IMG/VR virus record: IMGVR_UViG_3300042373_000871
Coordinates: 34,740 to 98,739 of that record
DNA from: a virus
Length of the DNA stretch: 64,000 nt
Reading direction: 5' to 3' (one strand)
Under the pieces are notes generated by a model. The model was not told where the DNA came from. It saw only the letters and a list, made by a program, of their open reading frames with translations, and did no database searches. The position numbers and the translations under genes were made by a program. This document shows, piece after piece, positions 24,422 through 64,000 of this stretch (its first letter is position 1; each line of letters begins with the position of its first letter).

Positions 24422-27400
24422 TTAACATGTTGTTCCGTTTCTAGAACATGGTTTACTATCCCAAATAATTTCAGAACCTGTATATGGTTGACTATAACAT
24501 TTACAACAAATATTATCCTTAACTTTTTTCCACAAATTGACTTCAATCACTTTACGAGCTCCAAAATCCTCATCAGGACATTTTATTGGTGTGAAAACAT
24601 ATTGAAATGAATAACTAATATTTGGAAAAGCATTAACTTTTACAACCAAAGTAAATGTATATTCCTTATCATTTCGAGCTTCCTCTAAAATTGCTCTAAT
24701 GTTAGGAACTGAAACAAATGCACCAATATTTTTATTTTTGTCTGGTTCTATGGTAAAACTACCAATTTCTACTTTATCAATACCTCCCACAATATATAAT
24801 TTAGCAGGATAGTTTTGTGTTAATAATTCATCTTCATAATCAATAACAAAATCACCCCTAAGTTGACTATTATATATGTCAATATTTTCTATAGTCGCTT
24901 TACTAAATTTTTTACTATTTGCAAAAATTTCTTCATCAGTTGTGGCTTTTGGTGGTGTATTAGGTGGTGGAGTACCACTTACATTTCCACTACCGGTTTT
25001 AAATAAATCAATAGATTTTTGAACACTAGTTTCCATTTGACTTAATTGACTAGGATTATCTTGAACCAATTTGTTATAAACATCAATATTTTTTTGATTT
25101 GCCGAGAAATATAATGTATAAAATTTAACAATTTCTTTTGCGGTTATATCAGGTAATAAACTAATTTTACCACTAAATCTCGCAATTAAAAATTCAACAT
25201 GTTTAGACAAATCTGAAAAAATCGCATATGGTACATTACTTGAATTACAATAAAATTGTGGATTAAAATAAGAAACACCTGTTTGACCCCAATTTTGTAA
25301 TAAATCAACACCTGAATAGTTGTTTTCTTTTGTTTCCAATTCAGTTCCATTTGATGACCCCAAATAAATTGTTGCAAACACTAAATACCTTAATTTTTGG
25401 TCAGCGGTTTGAGTAATAATTGTACTAATAGAGTCTTTATATTTAGATTTAGTTGTTGTTGGAGAATCAACTTTATCATATTTTCCATAATTACTTATTG
25501 GTGTACAACTTGGGTAATCTGTTGAACTGTTTGCTGGTTTGTCTACCGCGTCTTTAACAGTATTATTAGTTTGACTAATAACATTATCTTGTTTAGTACC
25601 ACTTTCTTTAATTGCCGCTTGTTTGTCTTGTTTATTTTTCTCAATAATTGAAGTTAATAAATTAGTTTTTAAAGTTTGTATGTAACTATCTATTTCAGGT
25701 AAATTTGACACAGATTGTCTGATTCCCTTAAATATTGTTTCAAACGTGCCAGGCCCAATACTATGATTAACTTCTTGAATCATGTAAGCCCCACTAAACA
25801 TTGGTACGTGTCTCAAATTAAAATACATAGTTGGTTGAATCATAGCGTTACCCATCATTGACACAGTACAAGCATAACTTCTATTTTTATATAAATTATA
25901 TAATGAAATATTTTGAGTTCCCGATGATTTACCTGAAGATTGTTTAACTAACTCATCTGTTTGTTGTAACGATTCTGCGGTTGCTTGTCCGGCACTTTGG
26001 TCTATTTGAAATCCATGAAAAATTGATTGACTTTGTGGGCCAACATCAACATTAAAACCAACAACTTTATTAGATTTATCCCAATCTTGTTTACCTATTT
26101 GGTCTTCAATTAATGGGTTATCACTAGCACGTCTTAAATCAAAAGAATCACCTTTAAATCTTACATTAGCATTATTTTTAAAATCCGGTTGCTCACTTGG
26201 TTTACCGGCATAAAAACAAACCATTTTAGCTGAAGAATTTCTATAATCAACATTTAAAAATGTACCAAACATTGTATTAGCAAATTCAAGAGACCCTTCC
26301 GGTTTTGGAACAGGATTTTTGACCGCATCTTGTACATTATAAAAGTTAACGTATGAAGGTATGTTCATAACAACAAAATTATTTTCAACTAAAATTGTTT
26401 GAACAAAAGTCAACATACTTGTTTTAGGGTTTATATCTGTTAATCTAAATTTTAATTTATTAACATCAACTAATACTTTATCCCCAATGTTTCTGTTTGC
26501 TCTATCCATTAATAAAACATCTTCAAAAAGTGTTTTAGTTTTAAAGTCATTACCTGAAATCCATTTATCGTTTAACGCTTTAAACGCCTCCCAATATTCT
26601 AATTTTGTTTGAGGACCTTCTAATGCAGTTGCAAGTGCAGCATCAGGTGTACTCCCAACATCAGGTAATTGTTTACGTAATTTAGGCATTAATTTATTAA
26701 TAATGATATTTTGAAAATTATCTGTACTAGTTATGTATTCATTCATTAAAGTAACAAATTTATTATAATTCAAAGTACTATCATTTAATTTTTGTGTTGC
26801 GTATATTTTAATAATTGGTGCAAATATTTTAATATTATCCACACTAAAATCTATATTACAATCAACAAAGAAATCGGTTATATATGAACCATCATTTGTA
26901 TATTGTAATTGAGGTATTTCGGAAAAACCAACATATACTTGTAACGCTTTCCATTCATTAGGATAATTTGTTATAGATTGTGATAACGTTACCGTTCCAC
27001 CTGATGTTGGTAATGGTGTTGGTGTTTGAAATGAATACTTACTCCATGTATATGGGTCAGCAAGTAATCTATTTGAAAAAGTGTAAAATAATCTCTTATC
27101 AAAGTTTGCCGGATTACCATATTTGAAAACAACATCGTAACTTAAAAATGATTGTAAAATATTTGTTAAAACACTTAGCTGCGAATCTTGTACCGCAGAA
27201 ACTAATTCAGTATTAATGTTAGTACCACCTACTTTTGGAATTCTCATTAAACTTCTCATCAACATTTGGAAATTTTTAAATGATTTGGTTGTTTCGGTAT
27301 CACTATTTGATATAAACTCATCATCAAAATCATATATAGATTTTGAAAAATTTAAAAATTCCGATTCAAAACTATCTAAAACTTCTTTTTCAAAAACTGA

Positions 27401-30400
27401 AAACATTTCACTTATTTCGGAATATTGGTCTTGTTTACCATTAATTGAGAAATTTTCTTGTTTGGTATCACCCGTAATGTTAAAAACTTGTTTTAAATAT
27501 TTTATAGGTGTTGGCTTAACAACTTTATTAATATCAAAATACCCATAATTAGGTGCAACCCAAAACATTCTAACCGAACCATTATACATTGCAGTATTAC
27601 CGGTGATTTCATATTTCAATTGATTAGTTTCTTCAGTTATACACTCATTACTTGTCTGATTTATTAACGCACCTTGTGATGGTACAATATATGACGAAAT
27701 GTTATCTAATGTTGTAATGTAAACTGACCAAGGAATAACTCTCAAATCTCTTTTTGGATTATTTGGGTCAAACCCTTCAGGCATATTAATTATTGCTTCA
27801 GGCACATAATTTAATGTAACTCCTGAAGTAAATCCATTTTGAATGTCCGAATCAGTATAACCTGAATATATTTGGAATCCTTGATAAAAAACATTAAAGT
27901 CATTAATTAATAATGGATAAAAACCTGTATTAATTAATGAAGATGTTTCAGCACCTAATGTTGTGTTTTTTTCTAACACAATATCCATTTGAGCCCCATT
28001 TATTATCAAATTATAGTTTCTTGTTGGTGAATTTGTTACCGGGTCATAGTTATGAACATAACTAAATCCTGACCATGATGTGTCTAAAATATCTTTACCA
28101 GTTTCAACAAAATTTTTATATCTACTCCAAACAGAACCAATTTTTAATATCCAAGCGTATGGTAACTTATGAACCGCTCCAAATTTCTTAAGTGTAGCAA
28201 AAATATAATCTAAATCAGTTACTGAATTTGACGAATAAGTTTTATATTTTTCTCTAAGTGTAGATAATGGTAAACTATTTAAAAACAGATATGCCGATGC
28301 AACGAATGGATATTCGTCACCATTTCTAAAATTCTTTACACCTTCTTGTATTGAATTAACAAAATATGGTGTGTTAAACATTGAAACGGTTTGATTACTC
28401 GTAACTAACCCTGAATAGTCATTATATCTTAAATTACCTTCTGTCGGTAATTGTGAGTCAAAACTTCTATTTTCATAAAATAATTTTAAGTCAAAATAAT
28501 AAATTGGTGATTTTATATTATTAAATAAGAAATTAGTAAATGGTCTTCTATCATTATTATTAGTAATATCTAAAAAATTAGATATAATTTTCTTATTAGT
28601 ATTATATGTTAATACTTTTGCTGTATTATATGATGATTTAATATCAGAAATTGAATTACCATTAGCCAATTCATTTTTAACCCAAGTAAAATTTGTAAAT
28701 GGGTATGTATCAGTTAAATTAAAAATATTACTTGATGTTGAATTTGATATAAAATTAACAACATTATTTTCACCAGGTAACGAAACCAATGGTTGTGATT
28801 TATTTTCATTCAATAAGTTTTGACTTAAAAATTCAAAACTTGAATTATTAACTTTGTTTTTAATGTAAGATGTATTAAAAATACCTCTAATAAAATTTTG
28901 CCAACTTTCACCTGTACCATCATTAGATATATGTCTCATTAATATCTCAAAATTTCCGGCATTAACCCCAAACTCTTTTAATTTTTTAATAATAAAAGGA
29001 TTATCATTAGATAAACTTTGAATAATATTAATACTTTCCGCCTCAGCAATAACATCTGTTACTTTATCTTGGTCTTGGGTGTTACCATTACTTCTTAATA
29101 AACCTGAATAATTTGATGTTAAAAATATTCTTTCAAATATTTCATAAAAATATTTAATTTCTTCCTTGTTATCATAAACCGCATTACTAATTGGAAATTC
29201 TATAGCGTCTAACGATACTCGTTGAATATCAGTTAATGGATTTTCAGTTGTTAAAGGGTCAGCAGGTGGTTTTACCGTTTGAGTTGTCGCTCTAATAAAC
29301 TCTTCTACAAACTCTACTTCTGGCCATAAATCTGTTAAATACGCTTTAGTTTGATTTATAACATTTTTATCTCCCGGATAAGTTAATTCAAACATTTCAC
29401 GACCATCTTTACCTGAAGTTGCCGTCAACATTTGAGGCCACGGATAAATAGGTAATGTTTCATTATCTCCTGATGATACGTTATCAACACACGCATTTGC
29501 TGTTTCCGGATTTAAAATCGAATTTCTTCTAGCTTTAATTTGTGTATCATTTAAATTCCAAGCTTGAACGTGAACGTCATCCATTAACCTTAAAAACGCC
29601 TCTCCGTTTGCAAAAATAACTGCAAGAACATTTCGGATATTTGGAACAAATCCAATACCATTATCTTTTTTTTGTAATAAATTAGTTAAAGCCTCTGTTA
29701 ATTCTTCTTGGATATTTTCTTTAGTTTTTTTTACATTAGTACCCATTTGATTGATTAAATCTTCAAATCGACCTTTACCTTCAAAGGTATAAAATTGGAA
29801 TTTTTTTTCTTCCGAACCTTTTTTATTTACAATGACTAATGAGTTAAAAATACCTTGTGTCGCTAATTCATTATCAAATTGTTTAAGTTGCTCAGGACTT
29901 GGTGTTGTTGATAATTTTTTTCTTTGTCGATAAGTTTCTAAAAGATTTACATCACCATATTTTGGTTCAATTGGGAAAATATCTATTTTAATATCAAATG
30001 GTACACTTGAACTAGTATTTGTTTTACCGTCAATAGTGTATTTACCTTTTACACCACAAACAGGATTCTCATCCATTTTTTCTTTTGCCTTACTAATAAT
30101 ACCTTGTAGTTCACTTAATGCTGCGGTTCGTTTTGTTTGAGTATCTATTTCACGTTTAAATGTATAAACTTTACTACCCTCTGTAAGACCATTAACCCCT
30201 TTCATAACCAAATAATTCTCAGTATCCATATATTTGAAAAACCAAGACGTTCCCGCCCCTGCGTAAACATCTTTATCCAAATTACCTAATAATCTTTGAT
30301 ATTCCTCAACATATGTTAATGGGTCTAAATTTTGTTGTGAGAATGAAGTTAAAATATTTTTAATAAAATTTTCAATTCTATCTCTCATTTGAACAACGGT

Positions 30401-31312
30401 TATTTCCGGAAAATCATCAGGTATCATTCCTTTTGATTTATATTCACTATATAACTCTCTAACCTTTTGATATCCTCTTGAAACTATTGAATTCTGAACA
30501 TTTGAAAAGTTGGTTGCTCCACCTTTAGTCGTTTGTATATTAACTCTAGATTGGTACATATGTGGAACAGCCGTCAACGCCGCCATAGGTACTTCACTCA
30601 ATAATGTATATTTGTATGTGTAAAAATGTAGTTTGATTTTAAAATTACCATTAGACGTATCATATCTTGATGAAAATGTTTGTAACATTAATTGTAATTT
30701 AACCGCTTTACCATAAAAACCTTTTATTGTTAATTGAAACATCGGGTAAGGTAAATTAAAAAATGCCGCGTATGGTGAATTATCACCGGCCTCAAACATA
30801 GCTCTACCTTTAACATCTTCTAAGTCAATAGTAATTGATGGTAAAAAATCTAATCCTTGTCTAATGTTAATTGACGTAATACCTAATAACCCATTATCAA
30901 CAGATGCTTGTTTACCGCCCGAGTTAATTGTTTGTTTAATATAATAATCACTACTCTTATTTGAATTTGATACTGATGTTAATTTTGGTTGATTTACACC
31001 GTTACCGGTGATTGTATCTTTACCTGTTATTTCATCAGTATATGAATTATCTAAAAATGTTTTATCACCCGGTTTTAAAAAATTAATACTGGCAATTGAA
31101 ACTGTTTGTACTTGGTCGTTATTTGCAACACCAAGTGCTAATTTAGTACGTGGTAATACTTTACACTCTAAATTAGCATACATCACTAAATTTTCTTGTT
31201 TAACATATCTTTCTTGTACTTTTCCGTCACTGTCTATGACTTTATTTGGGTCTATGATTGATATGTTATTATAATCAAACTCAACTAATATATTTTCCGA
31301 TTTATCTACCAT
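24422..31312 (-). CDS. Giant baseplate-hub-like protein, 2296 aa
   Basis: This is the largest protein in the window. Residues about 140-250 (GITSINIRQGLDFLPSITID, then LPYPMFQLTIKGFYGKAV) and about 1790-1860 (MYFNLRHVPMFSGAYMIQEV, then GTFETIFKGIRQ) look like the two halves of a gp27/gpD-type hub barrel with long insertions. Residues about 1960-2090 (LRYLVFATIYLG, then KENNYSGVDL, then YAIFSDLSKHVEFLIARF) faintly resemble a glucosaminidase-type peptidoglycan hydrolase, which would fit a tail lysozyme. The C-terminus is Cys-rich (NICCKC...CSRNGTTC). Its ATG overlaps the LysM gene by 11 nt. Being next to the gp53-like LysM protein supports a central baseplate role. The domain calls are by eye and tentative. 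Confidence 0.55.
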   Translation of the reverse strand: MVDKSENILVEFDYNNISIIDPNKVIDSDGKVQERYVKQENLVMYANLECKVLPRTKLALGVANNDQVQTVSIASINFLKPGDKTFLDNSYTDEITGKDTITGNGVNQPKLTSVSNSNKSSDYYIKQTINSGGKQASVDNGLLGITSINIRQGLDFLPSITIDLEDVKGRAMFEAGDNSPYAAFFNLPYPMFQLTIKGFYGKAVKLQLMLQTFSSRYDTSNGNFKIKLHFYTYKYTLLSEVPMAALTAVPHMYQSRVNIQTTKGGATNFSNVQNSIVSRGYQKVRELYSEYKSKGMIPDDFPEITVVQMRDRIENFIKNILTSFSQQNLDPLTYVEEYQRLLGNLDKDVYAGAGTSWFFKYMDTENYLVMKGVNGLTEGSKVYTFKREIDTQTKRTAALSELQGIISKAKEKMDENPVCGVKGKYTIDGKTNTSSSVPFDIKIDIFPIEPKYGDVNLLETYRQRKKLSTTPSPEQLKQFDNELATQGIFNSLVIVNKKGSEEKKFQFYTFEGKGRFEDLINQMGTNVKKTKENIQEELTEALTNLLQKKDNGIGFVPNIRNVLAVIFANGEAFLRLMDDVHVQAWNLNDTQIKARRNSILNPETANACVDNVSSGDNETLPIYPWPQMLTATSGKDGREMFELTYPGDKNVINQTKAYLTDLWPEVEFVEEFIRATTQTVKPPADPLTTENPLTDIQRVSLDAIEFPISNAVYDNKEEIKYFYEIFERIFLTSNYSGLLRSNGNTQDQDKVTDVIAEAESINIIQSLSNDNPFIIKKLKEFGVNAGNFEILMRHISNDGTGESWQNFIRGIFNTSYIKNKVNNSSFEFLSQNLLNENKSQPLVSLPGENNVVNFISNSTSSNIFNLTDTYPFTNFTWVKNELANGNSISDIKSSYNTAKVLTYNTNKKIISNFLDITNNNDRRPFTNFLFNNIKSPIYYFDLKLFYENRSFDSQLPTEGNLRYNDYSGLVTSNQTVSMFNTPYFVNSIQEGVKNFRNGDEYPFVASAYLFLNSLPLSTLREKYKTYSSNSVTDLDYIFATLKKFGAVHKLPYAWILKIGSVWSRYKNFVETGKDILDTSWSGFSYVHNYDPVTNSPTRNYNLIINGAQMDIVLEKNTTLGAETSSLINTGFYPLLINDFNVFYQGFQIYSGYTDSDIQNGFTSGVTLNYVPEAIINMPEGFDPNNPKRDLRVIPWSVYITTLDNISSYIVPSQGALINQTSNECITEETNQLKYEITGNTAMYNGSVRMFWVAPNYGYFDINKVVKPTPIKYLKQVFNITGDTKQENFSINGKQDQYSEISEMFSVFEKEVLDSFESEFLNFSKSIYDFDDEFISNSDTETTKSFKNFQMLMRSLMRIPKVGGTNINTELVSAVQDSQLSVLTNILQSFLSYDVVFKYGNPANFDKRLFYTFSNRLLADPYTWSKYSFQTPTPLPTSGGTVTLSQSITNYPNEWKALQVYVGFSEIPQLQYTNDGSYITDFFVDCNIDFSVDNIKIFAPIIKIYATQKLNDSTLNYNKFVTLMNEYITSTDNFQNIIINKLMPKLRKQLPDVGSTPDAALATALEGPQTKLEYWEAFKALNDKWISGNDFKTKTLFEDVLLMDRANRNIGDKVLVDVNKLKFRLTDINPKTSMLTFVQTILVENNFVVMNIPSYVNFYNVQDAVKNPVPKPEGSLEFANTMFGTFLNVDYRNSSAKMVCFYAGKPSEQPDFKNNANVRFKGDSFDLRRASDNPLIEDQIGKQDWDKSNKVVGFNVDVGPQSQSIFHGFQIDQSAGQATAESLQQTDELVKQSSGKSSGTQNISLYNLYKNRSYACTVSMMGNAMIQPTMYFNLRHVPMFSGAYMIQEVNHSIGPGTFETIFKGIRQSVSNLPEIDSYIQTLKTNLLTSIIEKNKQDKQAAIKESGTKQDNVISQTNNTVKDAVDKPANSSTDYPSCTPISNYGKYDKVDSPTTTKSKYKDSISTIITQTADQKLRYLVFATIYLGSSNGTELETKENNYSGVDLLQNWGQTGVSYFNPQFYCNSSNVPYAIFSDLSKHVEFLIARFSGKISLLPDITAKEIVKFYTLYFSANQKNIDVYNKLVQDNPSQLSQMETSVQKSIDLFKTGSGNVSGTPPPNTPPKATTDEEIFANSKKFSKATIENIDIYNSQLRGDFVIDYEDELLTQNYPAKLYIVGGIDKVEIGSFTIEPDKNKNIGAFVSVPNIRAILEEARNDKEYTFTLVVKVNAFPNISYSFQYVFTPIKCPDEDFGARKVIEVNLWKKVKDNICCKCYSQPYTGSEIIWDSKPCSRNGTTC

Positions 31313-56530: not shown

Positions 56531-58213
56531 TTAACTTTCTTTTCTTAACGAACCATCATAATGGTCAAATCTATCATGTTCTGTTGGAGTTAATAATAAT
56601 AACCCAGGTTTAATATTTCCCATAACAGTTTCTTGATAAACATAAGACATTAAAGTTTGCTCAAAAGGGTGAGCCCATTTAGTTTCTAAAAAACATTTAT
56701 AGTTTCCTTCTCTACTTACAACAATAGGCCAATTACATACATAAACTTCACCTGTCACGTATGGTAATCCATCGTAAGATTTAATATTTTCAAATTTTGT
56801 TTTAGGTGAATTAGGTTCTAACCCATGTTCAGGTAATCTCGGATTATCGGGCCAATGTCTTTGTCTAAAATCTTGTGGAACATTATACCAACTCCATTGA
56901 GTACCATTATCACCAAAAAATTCAGTAAAATTAAGTTTTAAAAAATCAAAATTTTCTTTTTTTACTATTTCTAAAGATTTTTTATATAAATTGGATACCC
57001 ATCTGTTAAACCCATTTTTACATGTTTCATTTTTGTTAGGATAAAATGCCATATCATCTTCAAACCAAAAATAATAATCGTGATTTGTTTTATCAAAGTG
57101 GTCAGCAACAAAGATACGTCCACCAACTATACCGATATTATCTTTCTTAATATGTTCAAACCCATATTGTTCACATAACTCAACATATCTTGGAGTTGTT
57201 GATAAATCGGTCGAATTATTTAATAAATATTTTTTAGGTTTTTCAACAAAATCTTTATCATAATCCAACATAGATTGAATTAACACTTCAAATTGTTTTG
57301 GAGAATTAAAAGTTATCACATATAAACCAACATTATCTGTATTGATTTGAGGTTTATTATTTTGTACAAAATCTTTTGTATATTTTTTTAACTCTTCAAA
57401 GAAAGGCCAAACTAAACCATTACCCTCAATTTCAAATCTATATATTAAATCTTTATGTTTATAAGAAAGTATTGTAAATAAACATTCATCGGCACCCATT
57501 AACCCTTCTTTTAACGTATCGTGCATTACTGAATAATAATAGTCATTCATTTGGTGAATGTTATTTTTACTCCCACCAAAAAAACCGCCTCGACACACAT
57601 AACTAACGTAATCGGTATTACAGTAACGAGCCATAGCTTTTCTTTCAAATCCATGAATCTCTTCATTACCATCATAAGGATATGATATTTGAATAAATTT
57701 ATTATTGTTGAAACGAACATAATTTTCCAAATTATCCAAAACATTGTCATGACTGAAATAACCTTTATTAACGGTGTTAGTTAATCCACCATCAACCCAA
57801 AAGAAATAATCACTATTAAACGGATTTATAATTGCGGAGTCATTTAACATAAAAAATTTAGTAAACATCATTGGATTATAATATTTTAATTCAGCTTGGG
57901 GAGATTCGGATAACCATCCCGCAAAATTTCTCCAATTATCTTGTGACCTAATTTTTTCAATATCGTCAAAAAAAGGATTCCAAGATTCAAAATCCTCAAC
58001 ATTTTTAATAAAAATTTTAGTAGGTTTATTACCTCTAATTTTTAATACTTCATCTTCTAATTCTTGGGGAATCCAAATACACATTTGAGCATTTGTCTCT
58101 AACATTTCAAAAAACTTTGTCTTGTAATTTGAAAAATCTCTCTTACCCCACCCATCAAGATTACCGCGACCTAAATCCCAAAGACCGGTAACTATTGTCA
58201 CATTACTATTCAT
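56531..58213 (-). CDS. Two-domain glycosyltransferase: HtrL/YibB-type plus GT-A-like
   Basis: Residues about 1-275 match the HtrL/YibB family: VTIVTGLWDLGRGNLDGW at the start, the MFTKFFMLNDSAI segment, DYFFWVDGGLTNTV with a DxG-type metal site, and later RGGFFGGSKNNI and LMGADECLFTILSYKH. Residues about 295-560 look like a second nucleotide-sugar transferase of GT-A type, with VGLYVITFNSPKQFEVLIQS, the metal-binding-like HDYYFWFEDDMAFYPN, and a C-terminal PYVTGEVYVCNWPIVVS and WAHPFEQTLMSYV. It is the last gene of the operon, one base after the preceding stop. Likely extends glycans; sugar specificity unknown. Confidence 0.75.
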   Translation of the reverse strand: MNSNVTIVTGLWDLGRGNLDGWGKRDFSNYKTKFFEMLETNAQMCIWIPQELEDEVLKIRGNKPTKIFIKNVEDFESWNPFFDDIEKIRSQDNWRNFAGWLSESPQAELKYYNPMMFTKFFMLNDSAIINPFNSDYFFWVDGGLTNTVNKGYFSHDNVLDNLENYVRFNNNKFIQISYPYDGNEEIHGFERKAMARYCNTDYVSYVCRGGFFGGSKNNIHQMNDYYYSVMHDTLKEGLMGADECLFTILSYKHKDLIYRFEIEGNGLVWPFFEELKKYTKDFVQNNKPQINTDNVGLYVITFNSPKQFEVLIQSMLDYDKDFVEKPKKYLLNNSTDLSTTPRYVELCEQYGFEHIKKDNIGIVGGRIFVADHFDKTNHDYYFWFEDDMAFYPNKNETCKNGFNRWVSNLYKKSLEIVKKENFDFLKLNFTEFFGDNGTQWSWYNVPQDFRQRHWPDNPRLPEHGLEPNSPKTKFENIKSYDGLPYVTGEVYVCNWPIVVSREGNYKCFLETKWAHPFEQTLMSYVYQETVMGNIKPGLLLLTPTEHDRFDHYDGSLRKES

Positions 58214-58214
58214 A

Positions 58215-60737
58215 TTATTTTTTTCTAATTATACTGGTATAACTCCATTCAGGTTTAAGTTTAAAAATTTCACACGATTCAATATTTTTTTCAAGATAAT
58301 CACATTCTTCATCTGTCATATAATCTGAAACTATTTTACCTGTTTTATTAAACATTTCTAACATATCAAGTGTTATCGTATTTTTTTCAGATTTCCATAT
58401 TGAATTAACATCATTCTTTACACTAACACTTGTATGTAAATCCTCTAATATGTATATACCACCACTTTTTATACTTTTAAATAATTTAGCAAAAACAACT
58501 TGTTGGTCTTTCATTGCATGACTTCCATCGTCAATAAATAAATCTATATCCACATTATCATTTGAAAACTCGATTAAAGTATTACCAACATTAACATTAA
58601 ATTCTAATAATTTAACTCGATTAAAATCATCAATATTAGCTCTATTCATTTCAAAATCAATACCTATTATTTCCGCATTAGTGAAAAATTCTCTCCATAT
58701 GTTAATTGATTGTCCTTCATGAACACCTAATTCAACAACTTTTTTTGCAGATTCTTTGATTTTATCAAATTCAAGTTGATAAACTTTATCAAAAAAATCA
58801 TGTCCATAATGTTTATCTGTCGTATATTTTTCAGCTAAACCACTTAATTTTGAATAATCATAATTTTCATTTATATTAAAAATTTCATTATGAATCTTAT
58901 CTATAGTTCTATTTTTAATACTACCATACGCATACGCATGAAAAATAAAATTATTATCGTTATATTGTTTCCAATTAAAACTTCTATTTGAAATAATTTT
59001 CATTTTACTAACGTACTCACCTCTATCTTTATATAAATGAGTTAATGCGGTTTGGTCCATCCATAATCTATTAGAATAAAATCCTTCATGATTTAAATCA
59101 TGTTCACCAACTTCAGGTCTTAATTCACAATCAATAGGTTTTAAGTTTTTACAACAAAGAGCCCAATCATTAAGAAATTTTTTACCCCATTCATTATTTT
59201 TTATTAAAAATACTCCGGCGTTCATTAAACTATGAGTACTTTCATCTAATGAGGCGATAAAATAATAATCTTTATCAATAAATTCTTCAATTCTAATATT
59301 AAAATCTGATACTATAGCATCCGTATCTAAAAATAGTATATATTCAGGGTCAAAATTTTCAATAACGTCTAATATTAACTTTGGTTTGTACCAAGTAGGT
59401 GCCGCACCATTTATGTAATCCGTTATTGTTTGATTTGATTTTTCACAAAAATATCCATATCCATTTTCATCACAATATTTTTTATTTATTTTTTCAGCAA
59501 ATGGTCCATGAGTTAAATTACTTGTGTAATATTGTGCGATGTAAATTTTTTTAATTTTATTTGTTTTTAAAATTCTAATAATTAATCCTTTTTCGTCCGG
59601 TTGGATATATTGCGCTTGAGTGTATTCTTTAAAATTCACATCATTTAAAATTTCATATTCATAATTTAAATTTTTAATCATTTTTAAAATAATATTATAG
59701 GTATTTTCATTAATAATAACACCATCATTTAAACTAAAAAAGATATTAATTTCACCGTCTTTTACTATTGTTTTAAGTAAATTATTAAATGTGTTTTCAA
59801 TTTTTAGGTCATGGGGATTTTTAAAATTAAAAACACATAGATTTTGTATAACTTCATCACCATATGTTATTGTTCTATCATATATATCAGATATACTTCT
59901 AGCGTAACCACCATAGTATTCCCAATTATTGTTATCTCGGTCTAACCCATACCAGGCACCTGTCTTACCTTCTGTACCGCTAACTCTATTAGTATTTAAT
60001 TCAATACCTGAAGACCATTCATAATTTAGAATAACTTTTCTATTAGATTTTAAATTATTATAGTAATTACTAATAATAAAATCACAATAATACATTCGTT
60101 TACCTGTTGAATAATGAATTGTTAAATTTTTTTCACCTAAATTATAAAAAGCAGACATGGTATCAATTGTATGAAATTTAACTTCAGGTATTTTTGAAAA
60201 GTGTTGCATTAATGTAGCATCTTCCAAATGATTAGTTTCGTCATGTATATTTAAAATTTCTTCACATATTTTTTTACTGAAGAACATTCCTCCACCACCA
60301 CCTTGTCCGGACCATATAATGTCTTTATCAATAATTTCATTAAAATATTTCTCTAAAACAAATGAATTAACATAGGTGCCATCGTCAACTCTTAAAATAT
60401 AATCAAATTCTCTATTTTTTAATAACCATGTTATGGCTCCTTGAAGTTTTTTAACCATATTAGATGGTTTTTTTTGATGATGTAAATAATAATAGTCATA
60501 TGTATCGGTTTCGGTTAGATGTAAAATTTGATTTTTTTCATCAAAAGATACTTCCGGATTGTCTCCATCAAAAAAAATAACTTCAATATTTTTATCTTTT
60601 AATTTAGATACCCAAGTATCCATACATGGTAATTTTCTAGTTAAATCAGCTCTATCTGATTGTATTGGGTCAAATGGTATATATGACTTTTCACTCATAT
60701 ATTTTTTTGAAGTGTATGCCAGAACGATTAATTTCAT
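58215..60737 (-). CDS. Trifunctional fusion: GT31-like, GT34-like and SAM methyltransferase domains, 840 aa
   Basis: Residues about 1-205 resemble a Fringe/GT31-type transferase (EFDYILRVDDGTYVNSFVLE with D118/D119, then SGQGGGGGMFFSKKICEEI). Residues about 395-620 match GT34/GMA12-type galactosyl/xylosyltransferases (PEYILFLDTDAIVSDFNIRI with DTD 471-473, LMNAGVFLIKNNEWGKKFL, WMDQTALTHLY). Residues about 635-840 are a class I SAM methyltransferase (KVVELGVHEGQSINIWREFF, then IIGIDFE and LFIDDGSHAMKDQQVVF), of the type that O-methylates sugars in macrocin-like pathways. Residues 206-394 are unassigned. It overlaps the SDR gene by 4 nt. Probably builds and methylates one glycan branch. Confidence 0.8.
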   Translation of the reverse strand: MKLIVLAYTSKKYMSEKSYIPFDPIQSDRADLTRKLPCMDTWVSKLKDKNIEVIFFDGDNPEVSFDEKNQILHLTETDTYDYYYLHHQKKPSNMVKKLQGAITWLLKNREFDYILRVDDGTYVNSFVLEKYFNEIIDKDIIWSGQGGGGGMFFSKKICEEILNIHDETNHLEDATLMQHFSKIPEVKFHTIDTMSAFYNLGEKNLTIHYSTGKRMYYCDFIISNYYNNLKSNRKVILNYEWSSGIELNTNRVSGTEGKTGAWYGLDRDNNNWEYYGGYARSISDIYDRTITYGDEVIQNLCVFNFKNPHDLKIENTFNNLLKTIVKDGEINIFFSLNDGVIINENTYNIILKMIKNLNYEYEILNDVNFKEYTQAQYIQPDEKGLIIRILKTNKIKKIYIAQYYTSNLTHGPFAEKINKKYCDENGYGYFCEKSNQTITDYINGAAPTWYKPKLILDVIENFDPEYILFLDTDAIVSDFNIRIEEFIDKDYYFIASLDESTHSLMNAGVFLIKNNEWGKKFLNDWALCCKNLKPIDCELRPEVGEHDLNHEGFYSNRLWMDQTALTHLYKDRGEYVSKMKIISNRSFNWKQYNDNNFIFHAYAYGSIKNRTIDKIHNEIFNINENYDYSKLSGLAEKYTTDKHYGHDFFDKVYQLEFDKIKESAKKVVELGVHEGQSINIWREFFTNAEIIGIDFEMNRANIDDFNRVKLLEFNVNVGNTLIEFSNDNVDIDLFIDDGSHAMKDQQVVFAKLFKSIKSGGIYILEDLHTSVSVKNDVNSIWKSEKNTITLDMLEMFNKTGKIVSDYMTDEECDYLEKNIESCEIFKLKPEWSYTSIIRKK

Positions 60738-61411
60738 TTTTTATAATATTTTTTTATAATTTGATATGGATTAGTATTTAAATTTTTAATGTTTAAATCA
60801 TTATAATATTTTGATATGTGGTTATCATATAAAATAGATTCGTTATCGTTTAATAATTCAATTTTATGGCCATTTATTTTATTTATTTTAATTAGATAAT
60901 TAACTATATCAATAACTTTAATTTTATTATCTAACGTAATATTAAGTTTACCATTTATTTTTTCATTAATTAAAAAATTAACAATTTTTGGTAAATCATC
61001 AACATCAATTAAATCTCTATATGTACCATTTTTTACTTGTATAATATCATTATTTAATAAAGAGTTATACATAAATGGTAATAATTGTTTTTTGTTTTTT
61101 GTGTTACCAACAACATTAGGTAATCTTAATATTAAAAAATTAGTTGAGTTATTTTCAATATATGATTCCATAAATAATTTATGTTTAACATAGTTGGTAT
61201 AATCGTACCTTAACACACTTAATGTACTAAAATATACTATAATGTTATTTTTATTTTTTATTAAAACTTGTTTTAATAAATCATATTCTTTTTTATATTT
61301 TAAAATATCGTTTTCTGTTGAATCGGCAACCCCGGAAGCAAAAACACACACAGATTTAAAATTATAAGTTTTAAAAGATTCTGCAATCATTCCATTCCCT
61401 ATAATTTTCAT
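60734..61411 (-). CDS. NAD-dependent sugar epimerase/reductase-like protein (SDR), 225 aa
   Basis: A short extended-SDR protein. N-terminal KIIGNGMIAESFKTYNF is a reduced Rossmann Gly motif. YFSTLSVLRYD carries the catalytic-region Ser, YVKHK is a YxxxK catalytic pair, LRLPNVVGNTKNKKQL is the conserved RLPNVYG-type segment, and YRDLIDVDDLPKIVNFL is the RD(F/L)IxVxD element. These are typical of dTDP/UDP-sugar epimerases and reductases. It is shorter than the usual ~300 residues, with the N-terminal Rossmann part trimmed. One base separates it from the GT60-like gene, so it probably makes or modifies the nucleotide sugar used by its neighbours. Confidence 0.72.
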   Translation of the reverse strand: MKIIGNGMIAESFKTYNFKSVCVFASGVADSTENDILKYKKEYDLLKQVLIKNKNNIIVYFSTLSVLRYDYTNYVKHKLFMESYIENNSTNFLILRLPNVVGNTKNKKQLLPFMYNSLLNNDIIQVKNGTYRDLIDVDDLPKIVNFLINEKINGKLNITLDNKIKVIDIVNYLIKINKINGHKIELLNDNESILYDNHISKYYNDLNIKNLNTNPYQIIKKYYKK

Positions 61412-61412
61412 A

Positions 61413-62660
61413 TTATAAATTACCAGTTATCCTATCACACCACCCTTTTGATGTACTATATGGCCATACAACCCAATATTTTGGTTTTGATGTTGTTTGG
61501 AAATCTCTCCAAACTTTACAATATCCATCAGGGTCTCTCATCATATTATTAATCTCGTTAATGTCAGCGTCTTTTCTATAAAGAGTTTCGTCTTTATCAT
61601 CGTGGAACGCAACAACCCAAAATTCATAATCTTTTTCCGGTACTTGTTTAAATGATATATCAATACAATGTTTGAAAATACTTGCAAAACTAGATAACCA
61701 TTCTTCTTCTGTTTCGTAAATTGTCGGATTTGGTGCGTATTTTTTATCTAAAGTATATTGTTGAACAGCTCTATTTGAAAATTTAAGACCTGAATAAATT
61801 TCATAATCTTTTAATGTTCTTTCAGTTCCAAATCCGTACTTACTAAAATCCAATGTAATTTCCTCACCATCCATTCCAAAAAGTTGTCTATTCTTTTTGT
61901 GAGACAACTCATTCTTTTTACCCCACTCTTTATCGTCATCCCATTGTTTTACCCTACCTTTACGAGTGTATTCGTGCCAAATAACAGTTTTGTGTGGGTG
62001 GAATAAATCATATCCGTGAGTGAACGCTCTAACGGCAATAGAAATTTCTTCACCATGAAAATAAAATTCAGGGTCATGTTGAACCTCAACACTAAATTGA
62101 CCAACTGTGAAGGCCATATGTGCTGAATAAAAACGAGAGGTAATTGGTTGTTTAAGTTTTTCCCAACCAGGAATTGTTTCAGGTAAGAAGAATACCGCAC
62201 CTTCAGGGATGAATCTATCAAACACCATTCTCCATGGTTCTTTAACTCTACCTGCCGGGTCATTGTCCGGGTCAAATGAAGAAACATATCCTGTTAATAA
62301 AGGTTTCTCAAAACCTTTCTTTTGAAGTTGTTTAACCATTTTGATTAAGGTATCGTCCCAATCCTTTTCAAATCTCATATGAGAATCTATTTGAAGAGTA
62401 TATTCCTCACCATCATATAATTGTTGTACTTGATTCCTTGCCCAACAAACACCTTTAGCTTCAGAATATAAAACATCCTTAACTCTAAATCTTTTGTCTC
62501 CACTAAATTTTTCTAAATTATCAAACCCGTCTTCAGGATGATATTGACGACATATACCTATTCTTAAGTTTTTAGGTCTTTTGGCATTTTCCAACATACT
62601 GTCTAATGTTGGGATAAGTTGGGGGTCACGATAGGCGGCTATCTGTACAAATATCTTCAT
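61413..62660 (-). CDS. Polypeptide GlcNAc-transferase-like glycosyltransferase (GT60 / GlcNAc family)
   Basis: The first 110 residues are an almost complete GT60-family signature: KIFVQIAAYRDPQLIPTLDS, then RIGICRQYHPEDGFD, DKRFRVKDVLYSEAKGVCWA and LQIDSHMRFEKDWDD with the metal-binding DSH at 92-94. FYFHGEEISIAVRAFTHGYD follows near residue 217. Characterised members of this family add alpha-GlcNAc to Thr of Trypanosoma mucins or to hydroxyproline of Dictyostelium Skp1. The C-terminal third (about 290-415, ending TSKGWCDRITGNL) is an extra domain I do not recognise. It is the first gene of the four-gene operon, so it would start the glycan that downstream enzymes extend. Confidence 0.85.
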   Translation of the reverse strand: MKIFVQIAAYRDPQLIPTLDSMLENAKRPKNLRIGICRQYHPEDGFDNLEKFSGDKRFRVKDVLYSEAKGVCWARNQVQQLYDGEEYTLQIDSHMRFEKDWDDTLIKMVKQLQKKGFEKPLLTGYVSSFDPDNDPAGRVKEPWRMVFDRFIPEGAVFFLPETIPGWEKLKQPITSRFYSAHMAFTVGQFSVEVQHDPEFYFHGEEISIAVRAFTHGYDLFHPHKTVIWHEYTRKGRVKQWDDDKEWGKKNELSHKKNRQLFGMDGEEITLDFSKYGFGTERTLKDYEIYSGLKFSNRAVQQYTLDKKYAPNPTIYETEEEWLSSFASIFKHCIDISFKQVPEKDYEFWVVAFHDDKDETLYRKDADINEINNMMRDPDGYCKVWRDFQTTSKPKYWVVWPYSTSKGWCDRITGNL

Positions 62661-62724: not shown

Positions 62725-64000
62725 TTATGGTGGTGATGGAGGAACTAGTTTATTATGTGTTAATATTCCATCGGCGAAATATAAGTTACTATTATCAACA
62801 TCAATATTATAAACTAAAGTCTCATCAGTACTAATATCAATACTAATTATTAAAACTTCATTACCATCTATATCCATATAATAATCACCCGTATTAATAT
62901 CTGTTGTTTCTTTAATATACCAAACACCCTCTTGTTTAACTACGTGTTCGTGAGATGAACTACAAATTAATAATCCGTTATTAATATCATAAATTGAATT
63001 ACTATTAAATGACCTTGTGTCTAATACGGTTACAGTCGTACTTGAATAGTCTAAAGTTGTACTACTCCAAGTTGACCATTGAGATTCATCATTTGGCATT
63101 CCATCAACAACAACTGATAATAATTGGTCACCAACTTGTATTTCCTCAATAGGTTTTTGAGTATTATCCGACATTGTAATTAAAGTTCCCGGTAACAAAC
63201 AACCTGGACACGTTGTACAAACCTGTGTAAATACTCCAAAATTCCATCGTCTTCTAATCGTACCATCACCGTAATAACCATCTAATGATGAAATAACTCC
63301 TGTACAACCTCCTAATCCATCACCTTCGTAAATTACTGTTGCGGAACATATATCACAATTGTCCATACAAACATCAACTTCAAGAGGCACACCACTACAA
63401 ACCCCACCTGCTGTTGTACTATAATATAATATCACATTACATAATGGTGGTAATGTGGTAGGGGTTAAAGTTGGTGTTGGGGTTGGTGTTGGTATTGGAA
63501 TACAACCACCCGCTTCACTAATAAAACTACTAATTGGTGACGGTATAGTCGGCGAATCGTTTTGATAGTAAATTAAGAAAATAAATTCAGTATTATCAGC
63601 ACAAAACACATCTGTAAATATACCCGGAGAAATAAATGACTCTTGTTGTGAGTTACCAAAACAATCTGTATAATTAGCGAATAACGTACCATCTAACGCA
63701 GGGTTTGAATTACCATACGCGTCAGCTAAATCGCCTGAACTTATTGTTACATCATAAGCAGAACAAGTTAATGGTATAGACGTTGATGTTGGTGTTGGTG
63801 TTAATGTAGGAGTAGAAGTTAGTGTAGGCGTATTTGTTGGAGTTAATGTTGGCGTAGATGTTAATGTAGGCGTATTTGTTGGAGTTAATGTTGGCGTAGA
63901 TGTTAATGTAGGCGTATTTGTTGGAGTTAATGTTGGCGTAGATGTTAATGTAGGCGTATTTGTTGGAGTTAATGTTGGCGTAGAAGTTCTTGTAGGTGTA
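62725..64000 (-). CDS. Thr/Pro-repeat virion-type protein with C-terminal Hint domain, N-terminus beyond the window
   Basis: The frame is open from the right window edge to a TAA at 62725, about 425 codons, with no start in the window; an internal GTG at 63607-63609 is not a credible start. From the N-terminal side it shows a Thr/Pro repeat ([14 protein letters not shown] type, 42-bp units), a Cys-containing domain ([20 protein letters not shown]), a second Thr/Pro stretch ([17 protein letters not shown]), another Cys-rich part ([14 protein letters not shown]), then the Hint domain and a nine-residue tail KLVPPSPP-type end. It lies just upstream of the glycosylation operon on the same strand. 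Likely a tail-fibre or head-fibre protein with mucin-like stalks and self-processing ability. Confidence 0.75.
62752..63201 (-). other. Hint (intein-like) domain at the protein C-terminus
   Basis: Block A begins with Cys: [20 protein letters not shown], followed by [10 protein letters not shown]. The B-like block has SSSHEHVV with its histidine, and the F/G end reads [20 protein letters not shown] followed by Asn. The terminal HN is followed by Lys, not Cys/Ser/Thr, and only about eight residues remain. Normal splicing is therefore not expected. The layout fits a bacterial intein-like or hedgehog-type domain that cleaves or forms an ester at its N-terminal Cys. Confidence 0.82.
63839..64000 (-). 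repeat. 42-bp tandem repeat coding for Thr/Pro-rich units
   Basis: Three exact 42-bp units start at 63839, 63881 and 63923, with a diverging fourth from 63965 to the window edge. Each encodes a 14-residue unit of alternating Thr and Pro/Leu/Asn/Ser. Identity at the DNA level indicates recent expansion, so copy number may vary between relatives. Confidence 0.9.

Follow-up and report, generated by a model that had tools for sequence, protein, structure and literature searches.

The virus DNA that we have analysed ends in a gene for a repetitive, surface-type phage protein that carries a Hint domain at its C-terminus, and we consider that this domain is probably an active autoprocessing module, similar to the A-type BIL domains and processed at both of its ends. 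The support comes from its catalytic set, its BIL-type predicted fold, the invariance of key residues, purifying selection, the terminal position, the short tail that follows and a preference for Lys at the start of that tail. Most Hints of known activity excise themselves from housekeeping proteins, as inteins do, or else serve in toxin release or Hedgehog processing. The present Hint, with its catalytic residues conserved, is found at the end of long surface-type proteins from several groups of phages, and has a nearly invariant Lys next to the Asn at which it would be cleaved.

The Hint domain and the protein that carries it

The window, meaning the whole stretch of 64,000 nucleotides, comprises bases 34,740-98,739 of a 98,739-base IMG/VR virus contig, and the end of the window is the end of the contig. 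The genome looks like that of a contractile-tailed phage, with genes for tail sheath, baseplate wedge, B-family polymerase, DnaB-like helicase and ribonucleotide reductase. The frame of the Hint protein is on the minus strand, with its stop at 62725, and is open up to the contig end; the gene start at 63609 proposed in an earlier note on this DNA is an internal GTG instead. The features are as follows, with the basis for each in brackets.

62725..63999 (-), Thr/Pro-repeat protein, partial ORF, 424 aa visible (N-terminus missing at the contig end)
63777..64000 (-), Thr/Pro-rich stalk, a 42-bp tandem repeat (14-letter protein unit) that extends beyond the contig end (TRF and contig L002)
63502..63771 (-), first small Cys-containing bead domain, residues 77-166, limits approximate (sequence; similar bead in L003)
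63445..63501 (-), second Thr/Pro linker, residues 167-185 (sequence)
63202..63444 (-), second Cys-containing bead domain, residues 186-266, the last residues before Cys1 being TTCPG (sequence)
62752..63201 (-), Hint domain (BIL-type), residues 267-416 (profile searches, AlphaFold2 model, Foldseek)
63199..63201 (-), Cys267, which is Cys1, predicted nucleophile of the N-to-S acyl shift (65/65 aligned terminal Hints)
62959..62961 (-), Ser347, the block B Thr/Ser position (Thr 59, Ser 5 in 65 aligned)
62950..62952 (-), His350, the block B His (64/65 aligned terminal Hints)
62755..62757 (-), His415, the penultimate His (65/65, in a set partly fetched with His-Asn patterns)
62752..62754 (-), Asn416, predicted Asn-cyclisation residue (63/65; 34/34 in a set not selected for Asn)
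62728..62751 (-), C-terminal tail KLVPPSPP, with Lys417 as the +1 residue (sequence; tails of relatives)
61413..62660 (-), GlcNAc glycosyltransferase-like protein (PF11397), the downstream neighbour (E=1.3e-70)
60734..61411 (-), NAD-dependent epimerase-like protein (domain search)
58215..60737 (-), fusion of GT34-like and methyltransferase domains (domain search)
56531..58213 (-), HtrL_YibB-like protein (domain search)

The near-identical contig L002 adds 48 further residues of the Thr/Pro repeat and then also runs off. Complete relatives of the protein are L206 (1,007 aa) and L272 (1,442 aa), the latter having a lectin-like Laminin_G_3 domain at residues 176-322.

The earlier note had recognised a Hint domain at the end of a Thr/Pro protein, and this is borne out by the profiles, the AlphaFold2 fold and the terminal position of the domain in 34/34 relatives. 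Cys1, which it placed near 63201, has its codon at exactly 63199-63201, and the terminal His-Asn is at 62752-62757 and is indeed followed by Lys, with KLVPPSPP before the stop. What it described as only a few residues after the Asn is Lys plus 7 more, and the description if anything understated the case, since some relatives stop exactly at His-Asn-Lys-stop.

The catalytic set of the Hint is complete (Cys267, Ser347, His350 and His415-Asn416). Three Hint/intein Pfam models match it, each under its curated cut-off, and the NCBIfam model intein_Cterm matches above its cut-off (22.8 bits against 15.6). When a profile of 40 relatives was used to search the PDB, the best match was the Clostridium BIL 2lwy (E=1.8e-19) and the second Tetrahymena BIL2 (6tmm/6y75, E about 1e-15), followed by 8w20, a 1,368-aa intein-domain protein, then inteins, and then Hedgehog at E about 0.001. 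With the AlphaFold2 model of the Hint (mean pLDDT 88.6, pTM 0.82) as Foldseek query the five highest-ranking matches all belong to BIL2 (lowest E=1e-10) or 2lwy, ahead of any intein, and the Hedgehog structures are weaker at 4.1e-06. The matches to Hint domains are far beyond chance. As profile search and Foldseek both rank BILs first, the resemblance has been tested by sequence and by predicted fold, and on these two measures the window domain is closest to BIL domains, ahead of inteins and Hedgehog.

For conservation we aligned 65 terminal Hints, being that of the window, 62 others with His-Asn, one with HQ and one with HS; the set was partly pattern-selected at the C-terminal end, with no selection at Cys1 or block B. 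Cys1 is present in all 65, and the block B His and block B Thr/Ser in 64 each. In 40 aligned relatives with 29% mean column identity, the only invariant positions are Cys1, the block B His, a Tyr, a Leu and the final His and Asn. The Hint domain is under purifying selection, with a median dN/dS of 0.124 over 165 pairs from 19 window-like sequences. In these 19 Cys1, the block B Thr and the block B His are invariant, as is His-Asn-Lys, most of them having been selected for that ending.

The four neighbours listed above (GlcNAc-transferase-like, epimerase-like, GT34/methyltransferase and HtrL_YibB-like) come directly after the Hint gene. Glycosylation of the Thr/Pro stalk would account for the adjoining glycosyltransferases no less well than attachment of a sugar, and we have no direct support for the earlier proposal that the N-terminal part of the protein is attached to a sugar, a lipid or the host surface. 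The fibre or adhesion role proposed with it fares better: the lectin-like, FN3, LCCL and collagen N-terminal parts of relatives, together with the genome context, indicate that the window protein is likely to be a structural or adhesion protein.

The relatives sit among terminase, portal, tail and fibre genes. A survey of 97 neighbour proteins around 19 of 20 hand-picked relatives, done without a control set, includes six 2OG-Fe(II) oxygenases, five group-7 glycosyltransferases, five methyltransferases, four collagen, three Laminin_G and two S74 chaperone proteins, and the Pfam models Portal_T4 and Terminase_6N have one match each. In L206, as judged by eye, the Hint gene is between terminase-like and portal-like genes, and a single gene separates it from the portal-like one. 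A search of the contig to which the window belongs found no 2OG-Fe(II) oxygenase; one for a T4 portal had no match either, but its control matched nowhere, and this result carries no information. Two other genes of the window may be mentioned here: a 2,296-aa frame at 24422-31312 with no PHROG match, and at 41161-44493 a 1,110-aa protein that seems long for a sheath, its tail sheath domains being confined to the last ~280 residues.

Relatives and the residue after the terminal Asn

To find relatives we used a pattern seeded from the alignment that avoids Cys1, His-Asn and the +1 position; it matched 111 stretches, and 34 loci were confirmed. Each of the 34 proteins finishes with the Hint, its His-Asn and 1-10 further residues. 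Cys1 can be seen in 33; the contig start truncates the other locus. At +1 there is Thr in 16 loci (all Alexandravirus-like), Lys in 14, Ile in 3 and Val in 1, and never Cys or Ser; clustering at 80% gives 17 groups (Lys 9, Thr 5, Ile 2, Val 1). The N-terminal parts vary, and include Thr/Pro beads, collagen-like repeats, FN3 with a Phe/Pro repeat, LCCL and Gly-rich linkers.

Over all loci we have 104 clusters, a tally that omits 23 of 261 domain matches (cut by the locus end or short of the domain end), and these separate cleanly by tail length and +1 residue. The clusters with His-Asn followed by Cys or Ser, which are true inteins, have tails of more than 10 residues in 29 cases out of 29. There are 62 His-Asn clusters with a tail of 10 residues or fewer and 0/62 have Cys or Ser at +1, the residues being K 45, T 8, V 3, F 2, I 2, Q 1 and A 1, although many of those with K came from patterns that demand Lys. 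Two of 64 short-tailed clusters are without the Asn, one with HQ (Cys/Ser next) and one with HS. A further scan, on the block before His-Asn and free at +1, gave mostly true inteins among the matches listed, with C 100, S 7, K 4 and others 9 at +1 among the 120 matches listed; its pattern contained His-Asn, and the set is thus uninformative on conservation of His-Asn.

A scan demanding His-Asn-Lys-stop gave 114 viral stretches, and for loci L188-L297 the Hint HMM is matched by 111 of 116 His-Asn-Lys-stop matches, the other five being short chance frames. The control scan required exactly one residue after the Asn and left its identity free, giving 107 usable matches (2 of 109 were dropped for an in-frame stop). 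All 107 are Hints, with Lys in 101 and Thr in 6. Clustered at 90%, and omitting 10 of the 107 whose sequence fell short of the domain start, they give 24 clusters, 23 with Lys and 1 with Thr. The scan for proteins that end at the Asn itself gave 6 stretches, 5 of them usable (one had an in-frame stop), and 0 Hints. The bond after the Asn is kept, given 107 Hints with one residue after Asn and none ending there. Lys is preferred beyond composition, given 101/107 against a background of 23/302 (8%) for Lys as last residue of other proteins of the same loci; the preference is phylogenetically non-independent, as the clusters belong to only a few subfamilies, which lowers the effective number.

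In bacterial and archaeal genomes the Lys-demanding pattern gave 85 stretches, with 13 Hints in the 80 examined (L298-L377), and of the five others at least L382 is a His-Asn-Lys-stop Hint. The viral and bacterial sets fetched with His-Asn and Lys patterns are uninformative on conservation of these residues. A +1 survey of 395 genomes of one bacterial phylum matched the seed genome only (1/395). Bacterial His-Asn-Lys-stop proteins include L307, L311, L316, L337, L361, L367 and L371, mostly from Bacteroidales-type records, and several have signal-peptide-like or pilin-like starts as judged by eye.

Proposed processing and the alternatives

We suggest that in the folded protein Cys267 would turn its peptide bond with residue 266 into a thioester, and that Asn416 would cyclise with cutting of the Asn416-Lys417 bond, so that the fibre would shed its Hint end and gain a new C-terminus. 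This could be a free acid produced by hydrolysis, or the released Lys or Lys-led tail could be joined to it by amine attack, or, less likely, it could be joined to another amine; with a one-Lys tail the ligation product would be fibre plus Lys. Once free to diffuse away, a single Lys would make a poor partner for ligation. Both reactions are probably used, since both ends are conserved. We infer that both bonds probably break, in a proposed order of steps and with a proposed fate of the thioester; genome context alone points to the processed product as a likely part of the virion. For A-type BILs the accessible part of PMC4031507 describes an N-terminal thioester, cleavage by Asn cyclisation and minor ligation by amine attack. 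For a Magnetospirillum BIL it describes clean splicing with Cys at +1, the mark of an intein-competent domain.

With no +1 nucleophile there should be no canonical class 1 splicing, and to that extent the earlier statement that the domain cannot splice holds, but it was too strong, as A-type BILs splice to a minor extent according to that part of PMC4031507. The 16 of 34 loci with Thr at +1, those of the Alexandravirus-like members, argue against one shared outcome: they could splice canonically, and the family may therefore not share a single one.

It is also possible, though we put it at well short of even chances, that the Hint is a self-removing cap for assembly, which would aid folding or oligomerisation of the fibre and be lost after assembly by thioester hydrolysis at Cys267, with no ligation. 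This is a narrower version of the autoprocessing explanation and is compatible with it. Tail spikes carry self-cleaving C-terminal chaperones, which provide a functional parallel, and the terminal position on repetitive fibre-like proteins, the Gly- or Pro-rich linkers ahead of Cys1 and the S74 chaperone domains in 2 of the 97 neighbour proteins are in keeping with such a role. However it leaves the retained Asn and the Lys after it unexplained, and there is no sign that the Hint oligomerises.

We think it unlikely that the fibre thioester is transferred to an amine of a second virion protein or of the host surface, in a sortase-like or BIL2-like covalent attachment that would serve maturation or adhesion. 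There is a precedent in BIL2 for transfer to Lys (PMC8616854, the part available), the LamG, FN3, LCCL and collagen N-terminal parts are adhesin-like, and in bacteria too a few proteins whose starts are signal-peptide-like carry His-Asn-Lys-stop Hints (13 in 80 stretches). However no acceptor has been identified and the +1 Lys is itself the nearest amine, while the bacterial examples came from a Lys-demanding pattern and are rare (1/395 genomes, the seed).

The Lys could itself be the acceptor. An isopeptide bond to a Lys side chain is reported for Tetrahymena BIL2 in the available part of PMC8616854, and as BIL2 also has the closest fold, direct attack by Lys417 is a reasonable though unproven idea. 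The stronger proposal would be a Hint class of its own, whose +1 Lys is obligatory and stands in for the Cys/Ser/Thr nucleophile: the side-chain amine of this Lys would attack the Cys1 thioester and Asn cyclisation would free the Hint, leaving a fibre that ends in an isopeptide-linked Lys or is passed to another amine; this would be a ligase for virion maturation or anchoring that works without a further enzyme. Hints with the His-Asn-Lys-stop ending occur in several families of fibres and in those few bacterial proteins, but we regard a class of this kind as quite unlikely.

That the domain is a decayed intein or an inert structural domain is very unlikely. The +1 nucleophile and a C-extein domain are absent, as decay would predict, but the catalytic residues are invariant at 29% mean identity, dN/dS is 0.12 and the Hint recurs on unrelated N-terminal parts; on the invariant catalytic columns and the dN/dS we reject decay as the explanation.

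Hedgehog-like transfer to a sugar or lipid, which shares the Hint fold and could be linked to the adjoining glycosyltransferase genes, is highly improbable, as the Asn-Lys end is kept with no sterol-recognition region after it, Hedgehog structures are below BILs and inteins in both rankings (E about 0.001 and 4.1e-06), and the glycosyltransferases have an obvious other substrate in the Thr/Pro stalk; of the earlier suggestion of Hedgehog-like or BIL-type chemistry, it is the BIL half that profile and Foldseek favour.

Comparison with known Hint classes and earlier descriptions

The window Hint has the elements of the A-type BIL sequence definition, namely Hint fold, Cys1, block B His and C-terminal His-Asn, and Lys417 is a non-nucleophilic +1 residue as that definition requires; the relatives with Thr (16/34 loci) would fall outside it. 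A-type BILs such as the Clostridium thermocellum BIL (2lwy) likewise have Thr/Ser-x-x-His in addition to these. However those described are in variable regions of bacterial proteins and have a C-terminal flank (PMC7765530, the part available), whereas this one is at the end of a phage fibre-like protein, and the flank is of 1-10 residues, often a single Lys. As the usual setting is lacking (a phage contig, a terminal position and an 8-residue tail) we treat it as a variant and not a typical A-type BIL. BIL2 of Tetrahymena BUBL1 (6y75, 6tmm) is the closest in fold and is reported to transfer its N-terminal neighbour to a Lys amine (PMC8616854, in part), but is in a eukaryotic ubiquitin-like locus with domains on both flanks, and the crystallised chain has Met after the domain, which may not be native, where the window has Lys.

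Class 1 inteins have the same motifs and Asn cyclisation, but need Cys, Ser or Thr at +1 and a real C-extein, and the Cys/Ser ones in our scans have tails of more than 10 residues; Lys at +1, the 8-residue tail and the lack of a C-extein rule out a true class 1 intein. The Hedgehog Hog domain shares the Hint fold and the N-S acyl shift, but has no Asn step and does not need a C-terminal Asn. In Hedgehog a sterol-recognition region comes after the Hint (PMC7765530, the part available), and a Hog domain is ruled out since the protein stops 8 residues past Asn416 with no such region, and by the weaker matches. A B-type BIL, which has no intein-like C-terminal motif, is ruled out by the His-Asn block (intein_Cterm 22.8 against 15.6 bits), and a toxin-releasing PT-HINT by there being only 8 residues after the Hint and no toxin domain; the match to PF07591 is weak (23.4 bits against a cut-off of 27.7).

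The closest described cases in phages are tail proteins of NCTB and Erwinia Y3 and virion structural proteins of Alexandravirus, which have a C-terminal Hint with His-Asn and a short tail (3-7 residues in NCTB, 9-10 in Y3 and Alexandravirus), mostly on collagen-like or large fibre-like N-terminal parts; the large NCTB protein has 28% identity to the window protein over the Hint. They differ at +1, which is Ala or Thr and not Lys, except for Lys in one NCTB protein.

With regard to earlier notice of such domains, GenBank labels the NCTB and Y3 tail proteins "contains intein domain", and BFVD has uncultured phage proteins as "Hint domain containing protein". We found no description of the terminal position, short tail or Lys rule in searches of one open-access library, which included the accessible parts of PMC4031507, PMC7664689, PMC8616854, PMC7765530, PMC5259590, PMC3556154, PMC8472413, PMC8790156 and PMC5526547, and no passage on the Hint protein in open-access literature searched for virion proteomics of Alexandravirus or Y3. 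In the parts available of the papers on phiCbK, on SGP-C and on the S. aureus phage, Hint comes up for other proteins only, namely terminase, helicase and reductase, and the part available of the CBB paper reports none in CBB.

If the Hint does self-process, then many phage fibres are precursors with a mature C-terminus that differs from the gene prediction, and fibre annotation and receptor-binding models would be affected. If Lys is the acceptor, this would be a minimal natural amine-ligating Hint, of use in protein engineering and a directly testable case for what BIL domains do.

Several other arrangements of Hints were seen in the loci. Two terminal-Hint proteins, with differing tails or N-terminal parts, are present in each of the contig stretches L138, L143, L137, L173, L250, L253, L266, L292 and L293. 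L124 has a 1,798-aa frame with two tandem Hints in one long structural-looking protein, the first ending HNKSSS right before the Cys of the second, which ends HNKD and has several hundred residues after it. In L021, L023, L112 and L091 the Hint is internal to a phage protein, has Lys or Gly at +1 and is followed by a long C-terminal part; such Hints may represent BIL-like domains within tail proteins. In the marine phage L005 (4420-5792) two adjacent stand-alone Hint-like proteins, both without the final His-Asn, are just past a major-capsid-like gene. Finally L383, L385, L386 and L387 have 82-aa frames with the second half of a Hint only, ending HNT, which are possibly broken or split genes, and L388 and L389 have a full form of 303 aa.
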